Part shown: positions 32,949 to 46,837 of the stretch, piece by piece
Numbering within the stretch: the stretch's first letter is position 1
How the letters are laid out: each line of letters begins with the position of its first letter
Assembly: GCA_003560165.1 (NCBI GenBank)
Contig: PWJC01000028.1
Span: 1-47,293, forward strand
Origin: Bacteroidales bacterium
GTDB lineage: Bacteria > Bacteroidota > Bacteroidia > Bacteroidales > UBA7960
DNA length: 47,293 nucleotides
Direction of reading: 5' to 3'
Program-made: the position numbers and the translations under genes
Notes under the pieces: generated by a model
The model's database searches: none
What the model was told of the DNA's origin: nothing
What the model saw: the letters and a program-made list of their open reading frames with translations, nothing else

Positions 32949-33011
32949 ATGCTGTTTTCGCGTGCAACCACCACTTATTATTATCTTTCTTTCCGCCGGG
33001 GGGATTGGTAG
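32949..33011 (+). CDS. Tyrosine/phenylalanine leader peptide of the aromatic operon
   Basis: A 20-residue ORF, MLFSRATTTYYYLSFRRGDW, with three consecutive Tyr codons (32976-32984), two Phe codons and a final Trp codon before the TAG at 33009-33011. It sits between a promoter and a terminator immediately before tyrA. The Tyr run is placed so that a stalled ribosome would leave the candidate antiterminator at 33000-33009 free, while one finishing the peptide would cover it. Tyr is therefore the likely main signal. Confidence 0.8.
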   Translation: MLFSRATTTYYYLSFRRGDW

Positions 33012-33077
33012 TGGCATGTGCCGTAAAAAGCAAACAGATTCATAAACCAGGCCCCGCAATTGCGGGGTTTTTTTTTT
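33000..33077 (+). promoter_or_regulatory. Aromatic-operon attenuator: terminator and antiterminator
   Basis: Terminator: CCCCGC (33052-33057) with GCGGGG (33062-33067) around AATT, followed by ten T (33068-33077). Candidate antiterminator: GGGGATTGGT (33000-33009) with ACCAGGCCCC (33046-33055), nine of ten positions paired including one G-U, which would sequester the 5' arm of the terminator. The tyrA start codon follows the T-run directly (ATG at 33078 or 33084), so the terminator also occupies the ribosome-binding region. Confidence 0.75.
33052..33077 (+). terminator. Attenuator terminator before tyrA
   Basis: A perfect 16-base palindrome (33052-33067) giving a 6-bp GC stem plus an AATT loop, followed by ten T residues. 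Confidence 0.92.
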
Positions 33078-38340: not shown

Positions 38341-39324
38341 ATGAACAGTTTTGGGCGAATATTCAGAATGCATATTTTTGGCGAATCACATGGCCCCCTG
38401 GTTGGACTGTGCCTTGATGGCTGCCCCCCGGGCATAGCCCTGAAGGAGGAGGACTTCCTGGCCGACCTGGACCGCAGAAGGGCCGGTGCCAGGGGAACAA
38501 CCCCCCGGGTAGAGACCGACCATCCCGAAATTGTTTCCGGATGCTTTGAAGGGCATACCACGGGAGCCCCACTGACCCTGTTGTTCACCAACCGAAACAT
38601 GCGTTCAGGAGATTATGCTGCACTGGCCCGGACGCCAAGGCCCGGACATGCCGATTTTGTCGCTTCAAAACGTTTCAGGGGCTTCAACGACCCCCGGGGC
38701 GGCGGGCATTTTTCGGGCCGGCTGACCCTGGCCCTGGTGGCAGCAGGGGTGGTGGCAAAAAAATTACTTCCCGGCATCCGGATCTCGGCCCGCCTGCTTT
38801 CGGCAGGCGGACATTCCGACATCGCCTCTGCCATTGACCGGGCCATGAAGGAGGGCGACAGCCTGGGCGGACTGGTCGAATGCCGGGCAGACAACGTCCC
38901 CGCCGGCTGGGGAGAACCCTTTTTTGATCCGGCAGAGGCGGTGATCAGCCACCTGGCTTTTGCCGTTCCTGCCATCAAAGGCATCGAGTTTGGTTCGGGC
39001 TTTGCAGCCGCTGCCATGAAGGGCAGCCGGCACAACGACCCCATCATCAACAGAGAAGGGAAGACCGCTTCGAACAATGCAGGCGGGATCAGCGGAGGGC
39101 TCACCAACGGCAACGAACTGGTCTTCCGGGTTGCCGTAAAGCCCACTTCGAGCATTTCCAAAGAACAACAAAGCCTGAACCTGGAAAGCGGGATAATGGA
39201 GCCCCTTTCGGTAAAGGGGCGGCATGATGCCTGCATCGCCCTGAGGGTACCCGTGGTGATAGAGGCCATTACCGCCATGGCCCTGGCCGATCTGAAATTG
39301 ATGGCCGCCAGGGGGGAAGGATAA
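38341..39324 (+). CDS. aroC: Chorismate synthase
   Basis: 327-residue AroC, FMN-dependent formation of chorismate from EPSP. The signatures FGESHGPLVGL, RRAGARGTTPRVETD, RPGHADFVAS, FNDPRGGGHFSGRLT and NNAGGISGGLTNG are present. It is about 30 residues shorter than typical enzymes but covers both ends. It is the last gene of the aromatic operon; no terminator follows before the his leader region, so read-through into the his attenuators is expected. Confidence 0.93.
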   Translation: MNSFGRIFRMHIFGESHGPLVGLCLDGCPPGIALKEEDFLADLDRRRAGARGTTPRVETDHPEIVSGCFEGHTTGAPLTLLFTNRNMRSGDYAALARTPRPGHADFVASKRFRGFNDPRGGGHFSGRLTLALVAAGVVAKKLLPGIRISARLLSAGGHSDIASAIDRAMKEGDSLGGLVECRADNVPAGWGEPFFDPAEAVISHLAFAVPAIKGIEFGSGFAAAAMKGSRHNDPIINREGKTASNNAGGISGGLTNGNELVFRVAVKPTSSISKEQQSLNLESGIMEPLSVKGRHDACIALRVPVVIEAITAMALADLKLMAARGEG

Positions 39325-39362: not shown

Positions 39363-39391
39363 TTGTAGTTAATAAAAAAGAATTACCTTAG
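39363..39391 (+). promoter_or_regulatory. Candidate promoter of the his operon
   Basis: TTG (39363-39365) and TACCTTAG (39384-39391; 7 of 8 to TAnnTTTG), spacer 18; another TTG at 39359-39361 gives spacer 22. The start near 39397 is about 16 bases before the first His leader ATG (39413). Confidence 0.5.
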
Positions 39392-39412: not shown

Positions 39413-39472
39413 ATGACCGGAAAAACCCATCATCACCTCCATCGCACAATCCATTCCCCAAAAGGGAGTTGA
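39413..39472 (+). CDS. Histidine leader peptide 1
   Basis: A 19-residue ORF, MTGKTHHHLHRTIHSPKGS, with five His codons, three of them consecutive (39428-39436). It ends with TGA at 39470-39472, 42 bases before the first attenuator terminator. Both CAT and CAC codons are used. The peptide has no other recognisable feature, and its position after a promoter and before a terminator fits a His-sensing leader. Confidence 0.87.
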   Translation: MTGKTHHHLHRTIHSPKGS

Positions 39473-39540
39473 CCGGAACCATCGTGGGTTTTTTCACAGA
39501 GAACATACCATCAGGCCCCGGGAAACCCCGGGGCTTTTTT
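39420..39540 (+). promoter_or_regulatory. First his attenuator module: competing RNA structures
   Basis: Region 1 AAAAACCCA (39421-39429, including the first His codon) pairs perfectly with region 2 TGGGTTTTT (39485-39493), 9 bp. Region 2 can instead pair with region 3 GGGAAACCC (39520-39528), six Watson-Crick pairs plus three G-U, as antiterminator. Region 3 is part of the terminator hairpin 39515-39534. A ribosome stalled on the His codons would mask region 1 and favour region 2-3 pairing. Confidence 0.8.
39515..39540 (+). terminator. First his attenuator terminator
   Basis: GCCCCGGG (39515-39522) with CCCGGGGC (39527-39534), AAAC loop, then six T residues. Confidence 0.93.
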
Positions 39541-39566
39541 ATTGAGCCAAAACAAATTGCACAAGC

Positions 39567-39626
39567 ATGACAACCAACAGCCATACCCTCCATCATCATC
39601 CTGCGCTTCAGGCGGCCGGGCGATAA
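39567..39626 (+). CDS. Histidine leader peptide 2
   Basis: A second 19-residue ORF, MTTNSHTLHHHPALQAAGR, with four His codons, three consecutive (39591-39599), ending TAA at 39624-39626. It begins only 26 bases after the T-run of the first terminator, too close to have its own promoter, so it is translated only from transcripts that passed the first gate. The sequence around the His run differs from leader 1. Confidence 0.87.
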   Translation: MTTNSHTLHHHPALQAAGR

Positions 39627-39702
39627 AGGATTGGCTATGTAACAAAAACACAGCATCACTTACGCAGGGGGACCGCCGACACCGGCAGGCCCCCTTTTTT
39701 TT
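39579..39702 (+). promoter_or_regulatory. Second his attenuator module: competing RNA structures
   Basis: The terminator is strong (39667-39694 plus T-run). Competing pairings are short: AGCCA (39579-39583) with TGGCT (39632-39636), and TTGGC (39631-39635) with GCCGA (39675-39679) within the terminator 5' arm. An alternative antiterminator is GGCGG (39611-39615, inside the leader ORF) with CCGCC (39673-39677). The 1-2-3-4 order matches the first module but pairing is weaker, so the antiterminator call is tentative. Confidence 0.55.
39667..39702 (+). terminator. Second his attenuator terminator
   Basis: GGGGG (39667-39671) pairs with CCCCC (39690-39694); the stem continues CC/GG and GCCG/CGGC with single bulged A residues at 39672 and 39687, 11 bp in all, and is followed by eight T. 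It ends 22 bases before the hisG ATG. Confidence 0.92.
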
Positions 39703-39724: not shown

Positions 39725-40594
39725 ATGACACACAAAAACAAACTGTTGACCCTGGCCGTTCAAAAAAGCGGCCGGTTGAGCGAAGACTCCCTGAGCCTGC
39801 TCAAAAAATGCGGCATTGGCATTCAGAACGGCCGCAACCGTCTAAAAGCCACCGCCAGTGGGTTCCCCCTCGAGCTGATCTTTTTGCGCGACGACGACAT
39901 CCCCCAATATGTAGAGGACGGGGTGGCCATGGCAGGCATACTGGGACTCAACGAGGTCATTGAAAAAAACCGCAAGGTCAGCATCGTCAGCGAACTGGGG
40001 TTTTCGCGCTGCCGGCTCTCGGTGGCCGTTCCTAAACAGGTCGATTATCCGGGCAGGGAATACCTCAACAACAAGCGCATCGCCACCTCCTATCCGGCCA
40101 TTCTTCAGTCATTCCTGAACGATAACGGCCTGAAGGCCGAGATACACCCCATCAGCGGATCTGTCGAAGTCACCCCGGGTCTGGGCCTGGCAGACGCCAT
40201 TTTTGAGATCGTGAGCTCGGGGGGCACCCTGATTGGTAACGGGCTGAAAGAAGTGGAGGTTGTTCTGGAAAGCCAAGCGGTGATGATCGCCCGGGAAGGC
40301 CTCCCGGCAGACACCGGAGAACTTTTGCAGCAACTGCTCTTCAGGATCAAGGCCGTTCAAAAGGCCAGCAACAACAAATACATCCTGCTGAACGCACCCA
40401 AAGAAAAGCTCGGGCGCATCAGTTCGTTATTGCCGGGGATGAAGAGCCCCACCCTGATGCCGCTGGCCGAAAAAGGCTGGTATTCTCTGCATTCGGTGAT
40501 CAGCGAAGATGATTTCTGGAACGTGATCGACAATTTGAAAGAAGCAGGCGCCCAAGGCATACTTGTGATCCCGATAGAGAAAATGGTGGTTTGA
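39725..40594 (+). CDS. hisG: ATP phosphoribosyltransferase
   Basis: 289-residue long-form HisG, the first and feedback-controlled step of histidine synthesis. The catalytic part starts LLTLAVQKSGRLSEDSL and includes the PRPP-binding segment SGSVEVTPGLGLADAIFEIVSSGGTL; the C-terminal ~75 residues are the regulatory HisG_C domain (LMPLAEKGWYSLHSVISEDDFW). The start at 39725 is chosen because the in-frame upstream 61 codons belong to the attenuator. It is the first structural gene after the two His leaders. Confidence 0.95.
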   Translation: MTHKNKLLTLAVQKSGRLSEDSLSLLKKCGIGIQNGRNRLKATASGFPLELIFLRDDDIPQYVEDGVAMAGILGLNEVIEKNRKVSIVSELGFSRCRLSVAVPKQVDYPGREYLNNKRIATSYPAILQSFLNDNGLKAEIHPISGSVEVTPGLGLADAIFEIVSSGGTLIGNGLKEVEVVLESQAVMIAREGLPADTGELLQQLLFRIKAVQKASNNKYILLNAPKEKLGRISSLLPGMKSPTLMPLAEKGWYSLHSVISEDDFWNVIDNLKEAGAQGILVIPIEKMVV

Positions 40595-40630: not shown

Positions 40631-41911
40631 ATGAAAATCGTATCGAAGATCATCCCGGCCGAATATGAACGAATCCTGCAGCGGCCAAAGGAAGTGCAGG
40701 AAGGACTGGAACAAAAGGTGAGCCGCATCATCGAAAGGGTCGAACAGGGGGGCGACGAGGCCCTGCGCGAACTCTGCCGGGAGATCGACGGCCGCGTACC
40801 CCAACAGTTTGAAATACCCCCGTATCAGCTGGTACTGGCCGGAAGCGATGTGGACGGCCACCTGAAATCGGCCATCAGCCAGGCCATCGAAAACATCCGC
40901 ACCTTTCACCAGGCCCAGCTGCCGATGCCGGTGTCGGTCGAAACCATGCCCGGTATCCGCTGCAGCCTGCATTACGAGCCCATCGAAAAGGTGGGGCTCT
41001 ACATACCCGGAGGCACCGCCCCCCTGCTGTCTACCGTATTGATGACGGCCATCCCGGCAAGCCTGGCGGGTTGCCGGGAGATCATTGCCTGCACCCCACC
41101 CGGGGCGCCCCCCGAATTGCTATACACCCTCAGTCTGTTCAAAATGAGGGTGTTCTCCATCGGAGGGGCACAGGCCATTGCAGCCATGGCACTGGGTACC
41201 GAAAGCATACCCAAAACCGACAAGGTGTTTGGCCCGGGCAACGCATGGGTCACTGCCGCAAAAATGCAGCTGGCAGGCCGTGGACTGGCCATCGATATGC
41301 CAGCCGGCCCATCGGAGTTAATGGTCATTGCCGACGACACGGCCATCCCGTCATACATTGCCGCCGATTTGTTATCGCAGGCCGAGCATGGCCCCGACAG
41401 CCAGGTGGTTTTGGTGGCAACCTCGATGGACATCATCCGGGCCACCATGGATGAAGCAGGGAGGCAGATCGAAAAATTGCCGCGAAGGGAGGTAGCCAGA
41501 CAGGCGATGAGACAGAGTCTGGCCATTTGTGCAGATAATGTGCAGCAGGCATTGGATATCAGCAACTACTATGCTCCCGAACACCTGATATTGTCGGTAA
41601 GGGAAGCCCGGAAAGCCGCCGGACAAATCCGCAATGCCGGATCGGTCTTTCTCGGCAACTTCACCCCTGAATCGGCGGGCGACTATGCCAGCGGCACCAA
41701 CCACACCCTTCCCACAGGCGGATTTGCCAGGGCATGGAGCGGAATCACCACCTCTGCCTTCATGAAGGCCATTTCCATACAGGAGATCACCCGCGAAGGA
41801 CTACTGAAACTGGCACCAGCCATATTGCAGATGGCCGGTGCCGAACAGCTCGACGCCCACGCAAGCGCCGTATTGCAAAGGATACAAAAACCCCCGGAAG
41901 ATGTCATTTGA
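40631..41911 (+). CDS. hisD: Histidinol dehydrogenase
   Basis: 426-residue HisD, oxidising histidinol to histidine in two NAD-dependent steps. Signatures: GLYIPGGTAPLLSTVLM, KVFGPGNAWVTAAK, IDMPAGPSELMVIAD, SQAEHGPDSQ (catalytic/zinc residues) and AGSVFLGNFTPESAGDYASG followed by the NHTLPTGG motif. Its end overlaps the start of the next gene by 11 bases. Confidence 0.95.
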   Translation: MKIVSKIIPAEYERILQRPKEVQEGLEQKVSRIIERVEQGGDEALRELCREIDGRVPQQFEIPPYQLVLAGSDVDGHLKSAISQAIENIRTFHQAQLPMPVSVETMPGIRCSLHYEPIEKVGLYIPGGTAPLLSTVLMTAIPASLAGCREIIACTPPGAPPELLYTLSLFKMRVFSIGGAQAIAAMALGTESIPKTDKVFGPGNAWVTAAKMQLAGRGLAIDMPAGPSELMVIADDTAIPSYIAADLLSQAEHGPDSQVVLVATSMDIIRATMDEAGRQIEKLPRREVARQAMRQSLAICADNVQQALDISNYYAPEHLILSVREARKAAGQIRNAGSVFLGNFTPESAGDYASGTNHTLPTGGFARAWSGITTSAFMKAISIQEITREGLLKLAPAILQMAGAEQLDAHASAVLQRIQKPPEDVI

Positions 41912-43607
41912 CCTGAACTCATTGCTCCCGCCCCACATCAGGGAGCTGAAGCCCTATGTTTCGGCCAGGGATGACTATCCCGGCAACGATACGCCTGCCG
42001 TATTCCTCGACGCCAATGAACTGCCCGGACCCATGCAGGGGATGCCGTCCGGCATCAACCGCTATCCGGGCAAAGAAGCCGTCATTCTCAAAGAACAGAT
42101 CGCAGCCGTAAAAGAACTGGAAAGCGACCGGGTTTTTCTAGGCAACGGCAGCGACGAGATCATCGACCTGCTGATGCGCTGTTTTGCCCGGCAGGGGCAG
42201 GACAGCATCATGATCTTCCCCCCCGCTTTCGGGATGTACGCGGTACGGGCCGCTGCCAACAACCTGAAGGTGGAGGAGGTGCCCCTCGATGCCGGTTTCA
42301 CTATCGATGTCCGGGCAGCCCTGGCAGCCACCGGTCCTCAAACCAGGCTCATCTTCGTTTGCCACCCCAACAACCCCAGCGGGAATGCCCAGCAAGTCGA
42401 AACCATCCGCCGGATTGCCAGGGAGTTCAACGGTCTGGTGGTCGTTGACGAGGCCTATATCGATTTCTGTCCCGAAAAAAGCCTGCTGCCCGTACTCCGA
42501 TCACACCCCAATCTGGTCGTATTGCAAACCTTCTCCAAAGCCTGGGGACTGGCAGGAGCCCGTGTGGGGGTGGCGTTTGCATCTGCAGCCATTACCGGGG
42601 TCCTGAAAAAGGCGGGTTTCCCATACAACGTAGGTTCGCCAGCCCTGAAGCTGGCCGGCGAAGCCCTGAACCGGCATGCCGAATACCGGCTGAACCTGAT
42701 CCGGCTCCGCAGGCTGCGCGATGAACTCGGCAGCCGACTCAGGGAAATGCCCCTGGTCGAAAAGGTGTATCCTTCCGATGCCAATTTCCTCCTGGTGAAA
42801 ACCCGCGATGCCGGGCTTGTATACCGCCACCTGGCCAAACTGGGAGTGGTGGTGAGGAATCGTGACAATGAGGCCGGGTGCAAAGGATGCCTTCGCATAA
42901 CGGTGGGCAGCGCCACCGAGAACGAACGGCTGATCAGGAGCTGGGAAATCCTCGGGAAAAACCCACAGAAAGCACGGCGCAAAGCGGCCCCCGAAACGGC
43001 AGGGGAAGGTCGGGTGCAAAAAACCGAACCTCCACGCGAATCCATCATCCGCCGCAAAACCAGCGAAACCGACATCACCCTCAGGCTAAACCTTGATGGA
43101 AAGGGCGAAGCTAACATACAAAGCGGGATCGGGTTTCTCGATCATATGCTGCAACAGATCGCAAGGCACGGCCTGATCGACCTGGAGGTGGATGCCCGGG
43201 GCGACCTGGAGGTAGACCTTCACCACAGCATCGAAGACATCGGCATATGCCTGGGATCGGCCCTGAAGCAGGCACTGGGAGATAAAGCCGGTATCGAACG
43301 CTATGGTTTTGAACTCCCGATGGACGATAGCCGGGCCAGGGTATTGATCGACCTCGGGGGAAGGAACTACCTCAGCTGGGACGCTTCATTTAGCGCAACC
43401 GAAGTGGGGGGCATCCCGGCAAGCCTCTTCCGGCATTTTTTCCGTTCGCTGGCCGAGGCCGCCAGTTGCAACCTGCATGTGGAAGCCAGCGGAGATGACG
43501 ATCACCATCAGATCGAGGCCATTTTCAAGGCCTTTGCCCGTGCACTGCGCATGGCAAAAAGCAAAAATACCTCAGGCATCATGCCGAGCACCAAGGGCCG
43601 GCTATAG
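41901..43607 (+). CDS. Fusion of histidinol-phosphate aminotransferase and imidazoleglycerol-phosphate dehydratase
   Basis: A 568-residue fusion. Residues ~1-350 are a PLP aminotransferase (HisC): LDANELPGP, NRYPG, FLGNGSDEIIDLL, CHPNNPSGN, the Schiff-base Lys in TFSKAWGLAGARVG, and RITVGS. A charged linker (~351-378, KNPQKARRKAAPETAGEGR...) leads to residues ~379-568, an IGP dehydratase (HisB C-terminal activity) with SGIGFLDHMLQQIARH, DLHHSIEDIGICLG and DDDHHQIEAIFKAFARAL. The usual Bacteroidota HisB is instead a phosphatase-dehydratase fusion. The frame is open throughout with no internal stop. The two activities catalyse consecutive steps. Confidence 0.93.
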   Translation: MSFDLNSLLPPHIRELKPYVSARDDYPGNDTPAVFLDANELPGPMQGMPSGINRYPGKEAVILKEQIAAVKELESDRVFLGNGSDEIIDLLMRCFARQGQDSIMIFPPAFGMYAVRAAANNLKVEEVPLDAGFTIDVRAALAATGPQTRLIFVCHPNNPSGNAQQVETIRRIAREFNGLVVVDEAYIDFCPEKSLLPVLRSHPNLVVLQTFSKAWGLAGARVGVAFASAAITGVLKKAGFPYNVGSPALKLAGEALNRHAEYRLNLIRLRRLRDELGSRLREMPLVEKVYPSDANFLLVKTRDAGLVYRHLAKLGVVVRNRDNEAGCKGCLRITVGSATENERLIRSWEILGKNPQKARRKAAPETAGEGRVQKTEPPRESIIRRKTSETDITLRLNLDGKGEANIQSGIGFLDHMLQQIARHGLIDLEVDARGDLEVDLHHSIEDIGICLGSALKQALGDKAGIERYGFELPMDDSRARVLIDLGGRNYLSWDASFSATEVGGIPASLFRHFFRSLAEAASCNLHVEASGDDDHHQIEAIFKAFARALRMAKSKNTSGIMPSTKGRL

Positions 43608-43759
43608 GTGGAAGGTGGAAGGAACGATGGAACGATGGAACGATGGAACGAAAAAGTTGAAGAGTTGAAGAGTTGAAGAGTTGAAAAGTTGAAAAGTTGA
43701 AAAGTTGAAGAGTTGAATCTTAAACCCATTAAACTATTAAACTATTAAACTATTAAACC
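43607..43759 (+). repeat. Stacked octamer tandem arrays between the hisC/B fusion and hisH
   Basis: Two GGTGGAA units (43607-43620), 3.75 GGAACGAT units (43621-43650), 7.75 GTTGAAGA/GTTGAAAA units (43656-43717) and four ATTAAACT/C units (43728-43759) lie one after another. Three of the four unit types are exactly eight bases. A hairpin around TGGGATTTCCCA follows near 43763-43774. The rest of the gap to hisH shows nothing I can name. Confidence 0.92.
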
Positions 43760-43868
43760 TGTTTGGGATTTCCCAGGGTTTAAACTGGCGCACTGCCTGC
43801 GGACAGTGGATAAACGACGTTTCGACATTTAGCAATTATCCCTGGGCCAGGTAAATAATTACAAACAC

Positions 43869-44456
43869 ATGAACGAAATCATCAGGATCGTGGACTACAG
43901 GGCCGGGAACATTGCCTCGGTCATTAATGCCCTGGGGCGTTTGGGCGGTTCGGCTTCCCTGGCTTCCCGGCCGGCCGAACTGGCAGGGGCCCGCAAACTC
44001 ATATTCCCCGGAGTGGGTCACGCACGTCCGGCCATGGAGGCCCTGATGGCAAGCGGAATGCACAAGGCCATCCGTGAATTTACCGGTCCGGTACTCGGCA
44101 TTTGCCTTGGCATGCAACTGATGGCCGGGCAGTCTGAAGAGGGCGAAACCCCGGGCCTGCACATTTTCGACCAGCCCATACGGCGCTTTGGGCCATCGTT
44201 GAAAGTGCCCCATATGGGATGGAACAATGTTTTTGACCTGAAGGGCCCGCTGTTTGCCGGAATCCCTGAAAACACCCATTTTTATTTTGTACACAGCTAT
44301 TACATGCCCATTTCGGCCGACACTACCGCCAACTGCCATTACGGTTTGCAGTTTGCGGCCGCGGCCACTTCCGGGAACCACTTCGGGGTGCAGTTCCACC
44401 CCGAAAAAAGCGGGGAGGCCGGCATGCAATTGCTGAAAAACTTCATCGGATTATGA
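43869..44456 (+). CDS. hisH: Imidazole glycerol phosphate synthase, glutaminase subunit
   Basis: 195-residue HisH supplying ammonia to HisF. Class I glutaminase triad: nucleophile Cys in LGICLGMQLM, and His/Glu in VQFHPEKSGEAG. The oxyanion region FPGVGHARPAM precedes it. The stop overlaps the hisA start as ATGA, so translation is coupled. hisF, its partner, lies after hisA. The 261-base gap upstream of hisH is filled by tandem repeats. Confidence 0.94.
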   Translation: MNEIIRIVDYRAGNIASVINALGRLGGSASLASRPAELAGARKLIFPGVGHARPAMEALMASGMHKAIREFTGPVLGICLGMQLMAGQSEEGETPGLHIFDQPIRRFGPSLKVPHMGWNNVFDLKGPLFAGIPENTHFYFVHSYYMPISADTTANCHYGLQFAAAATSGNHFGVQFHPEKSGEAGMQLLKNFIGL

Positions 44457-45175
44457 TCGTCATACCTGCCATCGACATTATGGACGGAAGCTGCGTCCGT
44501 TTGCTGCGCGGAGCCTTTGAGCAGCGCAGCACATACAGGCATACGCCCCTGCAGATCGCAAGGGAATTCGAATCGGCAGGCATCACCCACCTGCACCTGG
44601 TTGACCTGGATGGGGCACGCAGCGGCCGACCGGTCAACCTGAAGGTTTTGGAAACACTGGCAACCAATACCTCCCTGTCGATCGACTACGGAGGGGGCAT
44701 CCGGAATGCTACCCATATCAGGCAGGCTTTTGAAGCCGGGGCCAACCAGGTGAACCTGGGAACCTATCTGTTTTCGGAAGAAGAATTGCCCGGACAAAGC
44801 CTGGCCGATTTCGGGGCCGACAGGCTGATCGCCGCCGTTGACAGCAAGAATGGCAAGGTGGCCATCAACGGCTGGCAGCAACAGACAACCAGAACGGTTT
44901 CAGGGTTCATGGGTGAGCTGGCCGGCATGGGATGGACCTTTTTTGCCGTCACCGACATCAGCCGCGACGGCACCATGGCAGGCCCCGACCCCGGGTTCTA
45001 TTCTCCCCTTGTGGAAGAGTTCCCGGGGCTGAAGATCATTGGCGGAGGCGGAGTGGCCAGCATGGAGCATCTACTCATGCTGAAAGCGTGCGGTCTGTAT
45101 GCCGCCGTTACCGGGAAAGCCCTGCTCGAAGGAAAGATAAGCCCGGCTGAGCTCAGTACTTTTATACAACCCTGA
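44453..45175 (+). CDS. hisA: Phosphoribosylformimino-5-aminoimidazole carboxamide ribotide isomerase
   Basis: 240-residue HisA, a (beta/alpha)8 barrel performing the Amadori rearrangement of ProFAR to PRFAR. Catalytic Asp8 is in IPAIDIMDG; the second Asp is in TDISRDGTMAGPD. Phosphate-binding loops YGGGIRN and IGGGGVAS are present. It overlaps hisH by four bases and is followed by a 228-base repeat-rich spacer before hisF. Confidence 0.94.
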   Translation: MIVIPAIDIMDGSCVRLLRGAFEQRSTYRHTPLQIAREFESAGITHLHLVDLDGARSGRPVNLKVLETLATNTSLSIDYGGGIRNATHIRQAFEAGANQVNLGTYLFSEEELPGQSLADFGADRLIAAVDSKNGKVAINGWQQQTTRTVSGFMGELAGMGWTFFAVTDISRDGTMAGPDPGFYSPLVEEFPGLKIIGGGGVASMEHLLMLKACGLYAAVTGKALLEGKISPAELSTFIQP

Positions 45176-45202
45176 TCACCCACGTGGGAGGAATGATGGA
45201 AC

Positions 45203-45365
45203 AAAGACGGAGGACGGAAGACGGAGGAACGATGGCACAAAGGAACGATGGTACGAAAAAACTGACTTTTTTTCTACCTTCTACTTTCTGCCTTCTACCT
45301 TCTACCTTCTACTTTCTGTCTTCCGCCTTCTGTCTTCCGTCTTCCGTCTTCGACCTTTCGACTTT
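45203..45365 (+). repeat. Heptamer tandem arrays in inverted orientation between hisA and hisF
   Basis: A GA-rich arm (AAGACGG, AGGACGG, AAGACGG; 45204-45224) and a TC-rich arm of eleven 7-base units (TACCTTC, TACTTTC, TGCCTTC, TGTCTTC, CGTCTTC and variants; 45275-45351, then two decayed units) face each other. Positions 45210-45225 pair with 45336-45351 over 16 bp with one G-U. Two GGAACGATGG copies (from 45226 and 45242), the same word as the octamer array before hisH, lie between the arms. Confidence 0.88.
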
Positions 45366-45403
45366 TCGAACCAGATAATTACAAACAGGACAAAACAAAC
45401 AAC

Positions 45404-46156
45404 ATGCTGACCAAACGCATCATTCCCTGCCTGGATATCAAAAACGGACGTACCGTGAAAGGCGTGAGTTTTGACAATCTCCGGGACGCTGGCGATCCGG
45501 TGGAACTGGCTGCCAGGTATTCGGAACACGGGGCCGACGAACTGACCCTTCTCGACATTACCGCCACCCTCGAAGCACGGGCCACCTTCGTGCAGGTAGT
45601 GGAAGAGGTGGCCGCAGCCATATCCATCCCATTTACCGTGGGGGGTGGCATATCGAGCGAGCAGCAAGTGGAACTGCTGCTTTCAGCAGGGGCCGACAAG
45701 GTGTCGGTAAACACCGCCGCCCTGCTTGATCCGGGGCTGATCACCCGGCTGTCAAACGCTTTTGGCAATCAATGCGTGGTGGTGGCCATCGACGCAAAAT
45801 TGCAGCAGGGCCGGTGGGAGGTGGTGAGCCATGCCGGCACCCGCCCGACAGGATTGCCGGCCATCGGCTGGGCAAGGCAATGCTGTGACCTGGGGGCCGG
45901 AGAGATACTGCTTACCTCATTTACCGCCGATGGCACCCGTGGGGGCTTTTCGCTCGACATCACCGGGGAGGTGGCCCGGGGAGTCAGCATCCCTGTGGTG
46001 GCTTCGGGCGGAGCCGGCAGCCCTGCCCACTTCTTCGATGTGTTCACCCTGGCCGGGGCCGATGCCGCCCTGGCTGCCGGCATCTTCCATTACGGCATGG
46101 TGAGCATCGGGCAGGTAAAGGCGTATTTAAAAAAGTACGGGGTCGGCGTAAGATGA
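45404..46156 (+). CDS. hisF: Imidazole glycerol phosphate synthase, cyclase subunit
   Basis: 250-residue HisF, the barrel subunit that uses HisH-derived ammonia to make IGP and AICAR. Catalytic Asp11 is in IIPCLDIKNGRTVKG and Asp130 in VVVAIDAKLQ. Phosphate-binding TVGGGI and ASGGAGS are intact. The LLTSFTADGTRGGF loop keeps the second Asp of the usual DxDGT but has Thr in place of the first. It lies downstream of the heptamer-repeat spacer. Confidence 0.94.
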   Translation: MLTKRIIPCLDIKNGRTVKGVSFDNLRDAGDPVELAARYSEHGADELTLLDITATLEARATFVQVVEEVAAAISIPFTVGGGISSEQQVELLLSAGADKVSVNTAALLDPGLITRLSNAFGNQCVVVAIDAKLQQGRWEVVSHAGTRPTGLPAIGWARQCCDLGAGEILLTSFTADGTRGGFSLDITGEVARGVSIPVVASGGAGSPAHFFDVFTLAGADAALAAGIFHYGMVSIGQVKAYLKKYGVGVR

Positions 46157-46222
46157 TAAACGGCAGACCCCGGGCGGAGGCAGGCAGCGAACAAGTAACC
46201 AACTTTAAACGAATTCTGACAC

Positions 46223-46837
46223 ATGGACCCGGAAACACTTAATTTCAGCAAAGGTGGGGGGCTGATCCCCGCCATTGTCCAGGACGCTGCAAGCGGCAGT
46301 GTGCTCATGCAGGCCTATATGAACCGCGATGCCCTCAACAGGACGTTGTCGACCGGCAAGGTGACTTTTTTCAGCCGCAGCAAACAAAAACTGTGGACAA
46401 AAGGGGAAACCTCGGGCAATTACCTGCTGCTGGGGGAGATTCTTGCCGACTGCGATCGCGACTGCCTGTTGATCAGGGCGCGTCCGCAGGGCCCTGCCTG
46501 CCATACCGGGCAGAACTCCTGCTTTGGCGTACAGGCAGAGGATGACAGGCCTTCGCTGCTTTTTTTACACACCCTCGAAAACCTATTGCGCGACCGGAAA
46601 AACGCCGACCCCGGGTCGAGCTATACCGCCCGGCTGCTGGCAGAAGGGCCGAAAAAAATAGCAAAAAAGCTTGGTGAAGAGGCCGTGGAAGTGGTCCTGG
46701 AGGCAGAGCAGGGCAGCCGCGAAAGGCTCATCGAGGAGGCGGCCGACCTGGTTTATCACCTGAGTGTACTGCTGCTGTCGAGAGAGTTGTCGTGGGAGGA
46801 TGTGGCCGCTGAGCTTGAAAAAAGACACTCAGGCTGA
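46223..46837 (+). CDS. hisI: Bifunctional phosphoribosyl-AMP cyclohydrolase / phosphoribosyl-ATP pyrophosphatase
   Basis: 204-residue HisIE. Residues ~1-110 are the cyclohydrolase with metal ligands in DCDRDCLL and GPACHTGQNSCF; residues ~112-204 are the pyrophosphatase, an all-helical MazG-like domain (KLGEEAVEVVLEAEQ, EEAADLVYHLSVLLL). The two steps follow HisG in the pathway. It is the last his gene; its end overlaps the convergent DUF255-type gene by 9 bases. Confidence 0.94.
   Translation: MDPETLNFSKGGGLIPAIVQDAASGSVLMQAYMNRDALNRTLSTGKVTFFSRSKQKLWTKGETSGNYLLLGEILADCDRDCLLIRARPQGPACHTGQNSCFGVQAEDDRPSLLFLHTLENLLRDRKNADPGSSYTARLLAEGPKKIAKKLGEEAVEVVLEAEQGSRERLIEEAADLVYHLSVLLLSRELSWEDVAAELEKRHSG

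Follow-up and report, generated by a model that had tools for sequence, protein, structure and literature searches.

Attenuation is commonly taught as one gate per operon, and the his leader of enterobacteria is a single one. Its ribosome-mediated logic is described in PMC9413887, and His leader attenuators have been described for Proteobacteria and some Firmicutes (PMC9413887, PMC2965389). The enterobacterial leader (RF00514) has in common with the locus presented here a short His-rich open reading frame (ORF), alternative stems and an intrinsic terminator before the his operon; it differs in its phylum and in being single, as PMC9413887 implies, whereas the present one is double. Leader-peptide double attenuators as such are already known. 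The leader of Salmonella mgtCBR contains tandem attenuators for two different signals (PMC3641672), and as in our locus two leader ORFs and two attenuators stand in series before the same genes; the mgtCBR gates, however, sense ATP and proline and are unlike intrinsic terminators, whereas those described here would read His codons and end in intrinsic terminators. The macrolide-resistance operon mefA/msrD carries the leaders mefAL and msrDL, two erythromycin-sensing attenuators which its authors term a double-lock system against basal expression (PMC10314930). Here, too, two ribosome-mediated transcription attenuators answer to the same signal, but that signal is a drug and mefA separates the two gates, whereas in our locus both gates precede the first gene and the signal would be an amino acid.

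Tandem riboswitches for one ligand are described as giving a steeper, more digital response (PMC9481103). Pseudo-cooperative tandem riboswitches and double T-boxes (PMC9481103, PMC9413887) resemble what is proposed for our locus, in that one leader holds a pair of gates responding independently to a single signal, with a steeper response; unlike in our locus, the ligand or tRNA binds the RNA directly and neither a leader peptide nor a ribosome takes part. Within the same phylum, leader-peptide attenuation upstream of amino-acid biosynthesis operons is reported for Flavobacterium psychrophilum (PMC9723704), which is the likeness to our locus; the difference is that "histidine" and "his operon" are absent from the main text of that paper and that no tandem arrangement was seen in the part available. 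In the open-licence literature, outside which most subscription papers lie, we found no report of two leader attenuators for the same amino acid in series before a biosynthetic operon.

We analysed a 47,293-nt stretch of DNA from a Bacteroidales bacterium, referred to as the window. An earlier note on this DNA had proposed that its his operon is preceded by two His-sensing attenuators in series. Our results strengthen that proposal: the tandem arrangement and its stems are conserved, leader 1 alone is preceded by a promoter motif, and folding predicts switching upon His stalling. We consider two ribosome-mediated His-tRNA attenuators in series to be the best explanation and very probably the correct one. 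The architecture is a conserved, recurrent variant of the textbook mechanism.

Organization of the his leader region

The window contains an aro operon followed by the his operon on one strand. The aro genes are, in order, those for prephenate dehydrogenase and a DAHP synthase/chorismate mutase-like protein, then aroB, an aroE-like gene, aroA and aroC, the 3′ end of which is at 39324. The his operon starts with hisG (39725–40594, + strand, ATG at 39725; TIGR00070, E 2e-53) and continues on the + strand from 40631 to 46837 with hisD, a hisC-hisB fusion, hisH, hisA (named by its best match, the score being below the curated cut-off), hisF and hisIE. The interval between aroC and hisG is occupied by two leader modules, and all of their features lie on the + strand. 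Both modules consist of a His-rich short ORF followed by an intrinsic terminator, and both stand between the promoter motif and the his operon.

Leader ORF 1 (39413–39472) encodes MTGKTHHHLHRTIHSPKGS, with 5 His, and similar His-rich peptides are found in the 12 aligned type-1 modules (window counted). It is followed by terminator 1, a hairpin at 39514–39535 with a U-tract to 39543 (−19.8 kcal/mol), and, after a gap of 31 nt in which the U-tract is counted, by leader ORF 2 (39567–39626), which encodes MTTNSHTLHHHPALQAAGR with 4 His and belongs to a set of 15 aligned type-2 modules (window counted). Terminator 2 is a hairpin at 39666–39695 with a U-tract to 39703 (−21.3 kcal/mol). The two ORFs translate as previously stated, and the description of two His leaders before hisG, each with a GC hairpin and a U-tract, holds. 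A simple terminator scan of the window reported only terminator 1 and missed terminator 2, probably because the second stem is interrupted.

In module 1, a 9-bp 1:2 stem joins 39422–39430 to 39484–39492. A putative antiterminator of the type conserved in relatives pairs 39464–39470 with 39524–39529 (6 bp with a bulged A; GGG-A-GUU with AACCCC), and an alternative helix specific to the window pairs 39486–39494 with 39520–39528 (9 bp). The pairings first proposed for module 1 were therefore right in part: the 9-bp 1:2 stem has a counterpart helix in the alignment of relatives (A2, below), and the proposed 2:3 helix does exist but is not the one that the relatives share. Module 2 has 1:2 and 2:3 pairings as well, which were absent from the earlier note. 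Its 1:2 stem pairs 39582–39588 with 39633–39639 (6 of 7 pairs are formed in the window), and its putative antiterminator pairs 39611–39615 with 39673–39677 (GGCGG/CCGCC), corresponding to helix 71–77/137–143 of its relatives.

On this basis, transcription of the his operon would start ahead of leader 1, and the polymerase would meet two separate ribosome-mediated attenuators. When charged His-tRNA is low, a ribosome would stall at the His codons, so that segment 2 could base-pair with a portion of the terminator and the polymerase would continue. The portion concerned would be the 5′ arm in module 2, whereas in module 1 it would be the loop and 3′ side or, by other pairings, the 5′ arm. When His is plentiful, the ribosome would reach the stop codon and cover segment 2, and the terminator would form. 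We infer that stalling at the two gates would be largely independent, because each needs its own ribosome, so that the two read-through fractions would multiply, with less leak when His is plentiful and a steeper rise at shortage. The double arrangement probably keeps the his genes more tightly off and switches them more sharply; a steeper response and a lower basal level would agree with a review of tandem riboswitches (PMC9481103). It is possible, if doubtful, that the two gates instead differ in their threshold of His-tRNA charging and serve to grade the response, not to sharpen it. The number and layout of the His codons differ between the modules (means of 4.7 and 6.0 across 25 tandem loci), and so does the stem architecture, but both leaders carry a His run only.

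Chance expectation and conservation in the genus

The occurrence of such modules was assessed with a detector that demands an ATG ORF of 8–45 codons in which some stretch of 8 codons contains at least three His, and behind it an intrinsic terminator no weaker than −10 kcal/mol. Across the hisG upstream regions of 251 loci, drawn from the window's own genome, its genus, family and order and a set of 80 named loci, two modules were detected at 33 loci, one at 185 and none at 29, with too little upstream sequence at 4. Among 741 dinucleotide shuffles of these regions (3 per locus), 738 had no module, 3 had one and none had two. When the whole window was scanned on both strands for a His-rich short ORF with a terminator, modules 1 and 2 were the sole matches. 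Once duplicates and one false call had been taken out, the tandem set comprised 25 loci. It contains L142, whose first terminator is weak (−10.4) and doubtful. L081 is counted as single, its second module coming from a short upstream frame unlike a leader; L113 is also counted as single, yet is probably tandem, a type-1 module having been found there by the covariance model R1 described below, together with another His ORF that has no detected terminator. In L016 the script set the start of the leader too early, which affects the promoter position.

For the genus, 21 genomes were searched; hisG was found in 17 and the upstream region was readable in 16 (not in L020). Both modules are present in 11 of these 16 (L002, which is the window, L003, L004, L005, L007, L008, L010, L011, L013, L014 and L016), a count that comes from related species and is not made up of independent cases. 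The comparison of related hisG upstream regions, which had been named as a check, thus did not reveal the lack of conservation that was to refute the tandem reading. Ten relatives whose hisG is 73–82% identical to that of the window keep both leaders with their His run and terminator. The remaining members have a single module, of type 1 in L006 and of type 2 in L009 and L012, or another single leader in L024 and L029, where hisG is 60–61% identical to the window's. Two loci from neighbouring genera, L015 and L017, have type 2 only.

In the hisG tree, the single-module L012 is nested in a clade of tandem rows, and L006 and L009 fall in an otherwise tandem group of open branching order, positions which suggest losses of either gate within the genus. 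These three single modules each have a −7-like promoter element 26–29 nt before them, as expected if each gate works alone. Related species make up a full set (both gates, type 1 only, type 2 only) that lets the multiplication and sharpening of a response to amino-acid starvation be tested directly.

Two further observations concern these loci. In L006, which has the type-1 module only, about 35 bases from the 3′ end of aroC are partially repeated in direct orientation just behind it, about 360–240 nt upstream of hisG. L024 (genome G007) and L029 (genome G009) are assigned to the genus of the window, yet have a divergent hisG and a different leader, which suggests that their his genes were replaced or transferred.

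Conserved stems and predicted switching

Two alignments were examined, A2 with the 12 type-1 modules and A3 with the 15 type-2 modules. In A3, the 1:2 stem (helix 33–39/86–92, the His-codon region with GGGUAUG) has 85.7% of its cells paired and double changes at 2 pairs, and the terminator helix has double changes at 7 of 9 pairs. Taken together, and scored on a structure partly derived from the same alignment, these two helices have 90.8% of cells paired and double changes at 9 of 16 pairs. Their double-change cells number 25, where shuffles give 7.0 and none of 500 attains that number. The A3 antiterminator (71–77/137–143) is paired in 82.5% of cells versus 24–45% in slid versions. Its 5 double-change cells were reached by 16 of 500 shuffles; the pairs with double changes number 2, which 225 of 500 shuffles reached, and one slid version has 3. 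The changes are CG to UA at 71:143 in three sequences, GC to AU at 75:139 in two and, after one misplaced gap was moved, GC to UA at 72:142 in L003 and L004. This covariation supports an antiterminator in module 2 that would be mutually exclusive with the terminator.

In A2, the 1:2 stem (the His-codon region with the segment after the stop codon) has double changes at 4 of 7 pairs. The antiterminator 70–76/132–138, in which GGGUGUU at the leader stop pairs with AACACCC, a segment spanning the terminator loop and 3′ side, has 94% of its cells paired, with one-sided G-U variants only and no double changes. On a structure again partly derived from the alignment, the 1:2 stem and antiterminator of A2 together are 89.9% paired (39–49% in slid versions). 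Their double-change cells number 7, a value that 2 of 500 shuffles attain, but sliding the partners by +1 or +3 raises it to 8.

The effect of stalling was predicted by folding, with an assumed ribosome footprint that ends 13 nt past the first base of the codon in the A site. Two ribosome positions, on a His codon and on the stop codon, were considered, and for each the ensemble energies obtained with and without a forced terminator were compared. With the 3′ arm blocked, the His stall shifted the balance by more than 1 kcal/mol toward antitermination in all 27 modules of the genus set plus L015 and L017, and in 20 of 26 modules from 13 other tandem loci (L142 left out); the other 6 of the 26 shifted by less than 1 kcal/mol or in the wrong direction. 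Because a longer free stretch alone could shift the balance, we ran a control with 200 shuffled spacers, using one middle His codon per module. In this arm-blocked test the shift of the window's module 1 was reached by 2 shuffles and that of module 2 by none, and at most 10 shuffles reached the shift in 6 of 12 type-1 and 13 of 15 type-2 modules. The arm-blocked test is blind to the conserved helix of module 1, because that helix uses the 3′ side of the terminator. In an arm-free version, where the penalty falls on the terminator's own pairs only and the conserved type-1 helix is allowed, module 1 of the window was reached by 1 of 200 shuffles and module 2 by 14, and at most 10 shuffles reached the shift in 12 of 12 type-1 and 9 of 15 type-2 modules. 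The two energy tests thus disagree in part on module 2 of the window (0/200 vs 14/200). A His-stalled ribosome is predicted to favour antitermination, clearly in module 1 and, for module 2, in one of the two tests.

With a cruder measure, the sequestration of the terminator's 5′ arm before its 3′ arm emerges, the stalled and stop states of module 1 do not differ (0.67 vs 0.69), and those of module 2 are 0.61 vs 0.14. When no ribosome is present the values are 0.59 and 0.61 for modules 1 and 2, which hardly differs from the stalled state. An untranslated leader terminates in the textbook model of attenuation, and the folding of the window gives no support for termination of the untranslated leader. 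In every case examined in the window the terminator is the more stable state, so that switching would have to be kinetic.

These measures can also be read differently, with one module regulating and the other surviving as a remnant, neutral or in decay, whose contribution is no more than a terminator that leaks in part. In that case one would point to the two single states found in the genus (L006, L009 and L012), to the drift of the shared module 1 antiterminator in the window, to the sequestration measure that reveals no switch in the window's module 1 and to the one energy test out of two that module 2 passes. We nevertheless regard a remnant as improbable, given that the ten relatives at 73–82% hisG identity retain both leaders, the His run and the terminator, that the window's module 1 beats the shuffles in both energy tests, and that the operon should be choked by a strong terminator whose gate no longer works.

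Relation to the upstream aro operon

The position of the leaders behind aroC raises the question of whether module 1 mainly insulates the his genes from read-through out of the aro operon. aroC is upstream in 12 of 16 genus and near-genus loci (in L007, L008 and L010 it was located further upstream by tblastn), and in the window the sole terminator candidate seen in the aroC–leader 1 interval is a hairpin (−17.2 kcal/mol) that is loose and has an interrupted T-tract. Against this, a plain terminator would need no conserved His leader, and the tandem state does not clearly follow aroC: loci with aroC upstream comprise 9 tandem and 3 single ones, and those with none within about 1.5 kb comprise 2 tandem (L011, L014) and 2 single ones. 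As tandem and single states are not clearly associated with aroC, the second gate is left unexplained by the aro operon, with the proviso that the loci are few and a link may still exist. Insulation as the main role of module 1 appears quite improbable to us.

A candidate promoter before leader 1

The candidate his promoter of the window lies at 39363–39391 on the + strand, with TTG at 39363–39365 and a −7 element, TACCTTAG, at 39384–39391 that agrees with 5 of the 6 fixed positions of TAnnTTTG, the Bacteroidota promoter consensus as quoted in PMC7366714. We defined the motif as a TAnnTTTG-like −7 element placed 15–45 nt before leader 1, with TTG 17–24 nt upstream of the element. The full motif precedes leader 1 in 19 of the 25 tandem loci, where shuffles lead one to expect 0.8, and the −7 element alone does so in 22 (5.9 expected). 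A scan for promoters of the E. coli type gave no candidate before leader 1. Between the modules, the TAnnTTTG-like element (TA and at least 5 of 6 positions), the sole promoter type scanned there, is absent from all 1,666 bp of inter-module sequence in the 25 loci, and this includes six long gaps of 96–296 nt (five genus loci and one other). A transcription start between the modules, which the earlier note had singled out as incompatible with gates in series, was not found by this motif; judged in the same way, the two complete modules would lie on one transcript from one promoter. That each module has a start site of its own, the two being alternative leaders rather than gates in series, can be given almost no weight: the six long gaps between terminator 1 and leader 2 could hold a promoter, but the element found before leader 1 in 22 of 25 loci occurs nowhere between the modules and the gap of the window itself measures 31 nt.

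Origin and spread of the two module types

The module types were compared across 68 loci among L001–L117 with two covariance models, R1 for type 1 and R2 for type 2. R1 gave 40–43 bits for module 1 in a different genus within the family (L027, L114, L115 and L116) and 17.6–24.7 for type-2 modules, and R2 gave up to 55.6 bits for Chitinophaga leaders and at most 31.0 for type-1 modules. By these scores each module type is closer to leaders found in other genera than to the module beside it. We also considered a recent tandem duplication of one leader and rejected it, the scores being higher for the leaders of other genera than for the neighbouring module; the earlier view that the modules are not copies of each other, and that a recent duplication is unlikely, is backed by the same comparison.

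The order-wide sample comprised 294 genomes with hisG in 146, of which 145 were examined (G168 was left out, its match lacking the hisG start). A single module was detected at 106 of these loci, a tandem at 13 and none at 25, and 1 had no upstream sequence. At least one His module thus precedes hisG in 119 of 145 loci, which makes His leaders a common feature of hisG upstream regions in the sampled order. Beyond the window's family, tandem loci occur in five families (f14, f40, f63, f93 and f111). Among the 80 named loci, 67 have one module, 8 two and 4 none, with no upstream sequence for 1; seven of the eight two-module loci are genus assemblies already counted and the other is false. The contrast originally drawn with enterobacteria, where a single his leader is usual, needs to be widened: the single state is also the commoner one in the sampled order (106 single vs 13 tandem of 145), and the contrast is not limited to enterobacteria.

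On a hisG tree of 235 rows, the fewest changes between the single and tandem states number 9, a rough count from a quick tree with many open forks, in which gains and losses are not separated and rows without a module are left aside. The tree omits L032–L040 and L043, nine of them being the same assemblies as genus members and L043 only close to L019, and also L112 and L120, whose proteins are identical to others. The His gate may have been doubled several times in Bacteroidales, and sometimes reduced again, from different source modules and for a pseudo-cooperative response to His-tRNA, as a leader-peptide counterpart of tandem riboswitches; we give this broader proposal an even chance.

At the gathering level, a search of the window against Rfam returned no match. 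RF00514 (His_leader), which has a cut-off of 49 bits, gives module 1 a score of 20 and no hit to module 2 up to E 10, so that both modules are below the gathering threshold of this family. Rfam may lack a Bacteroidota His leader family, given the 119 of 145 loci with a module, the Rfam search itself having covered the window alone.

Further features of the window and its genome

In the genome of the window (G000, 95% complete), no match was found to homoserine dehydrogenase (PF00742) or to IlvD (PF00920), each of which is present in all 14 control genomes. The organism may thus lack the synthesis of Thr/Met and of branched-chain amino acids and yet retain that of His. In a search for tandem leaders at other amino-acid operons, the single PF00425 gene of this genome had no recognisable aromatic leader. 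Directly before the prephenate dehydrogenase gene and the aro operon of the window, a Tyr-rich leader ORF, MLFSRATTTYYYLSFRRGDW, with three consecutive Tyr, is followed by a terminator hairpin at 33051–33068 and a T-tract. The whole span, 32949–33068, is probably a single Tyr (or Tyr/Phe) attenuator of the aro operon, and the second match of model R1 in the same genome (32934–33078, E 0.03) overlaps this leader.

Within the his operon, HisC and the HisB dehydratase are joined in one 589-aa ORF at 41838–43607, with HisC at residues 32–368 and the HisB dehydratase at residues 400–589. Nine other genus members, as well as G021, G024, G042 and G050, have a near-full-length match that is free of stops, and in G013 and G019 the match contains one stop. 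G007 and G009, the genus members with a divergent hisG, match as separate HisC and HisB pieces.
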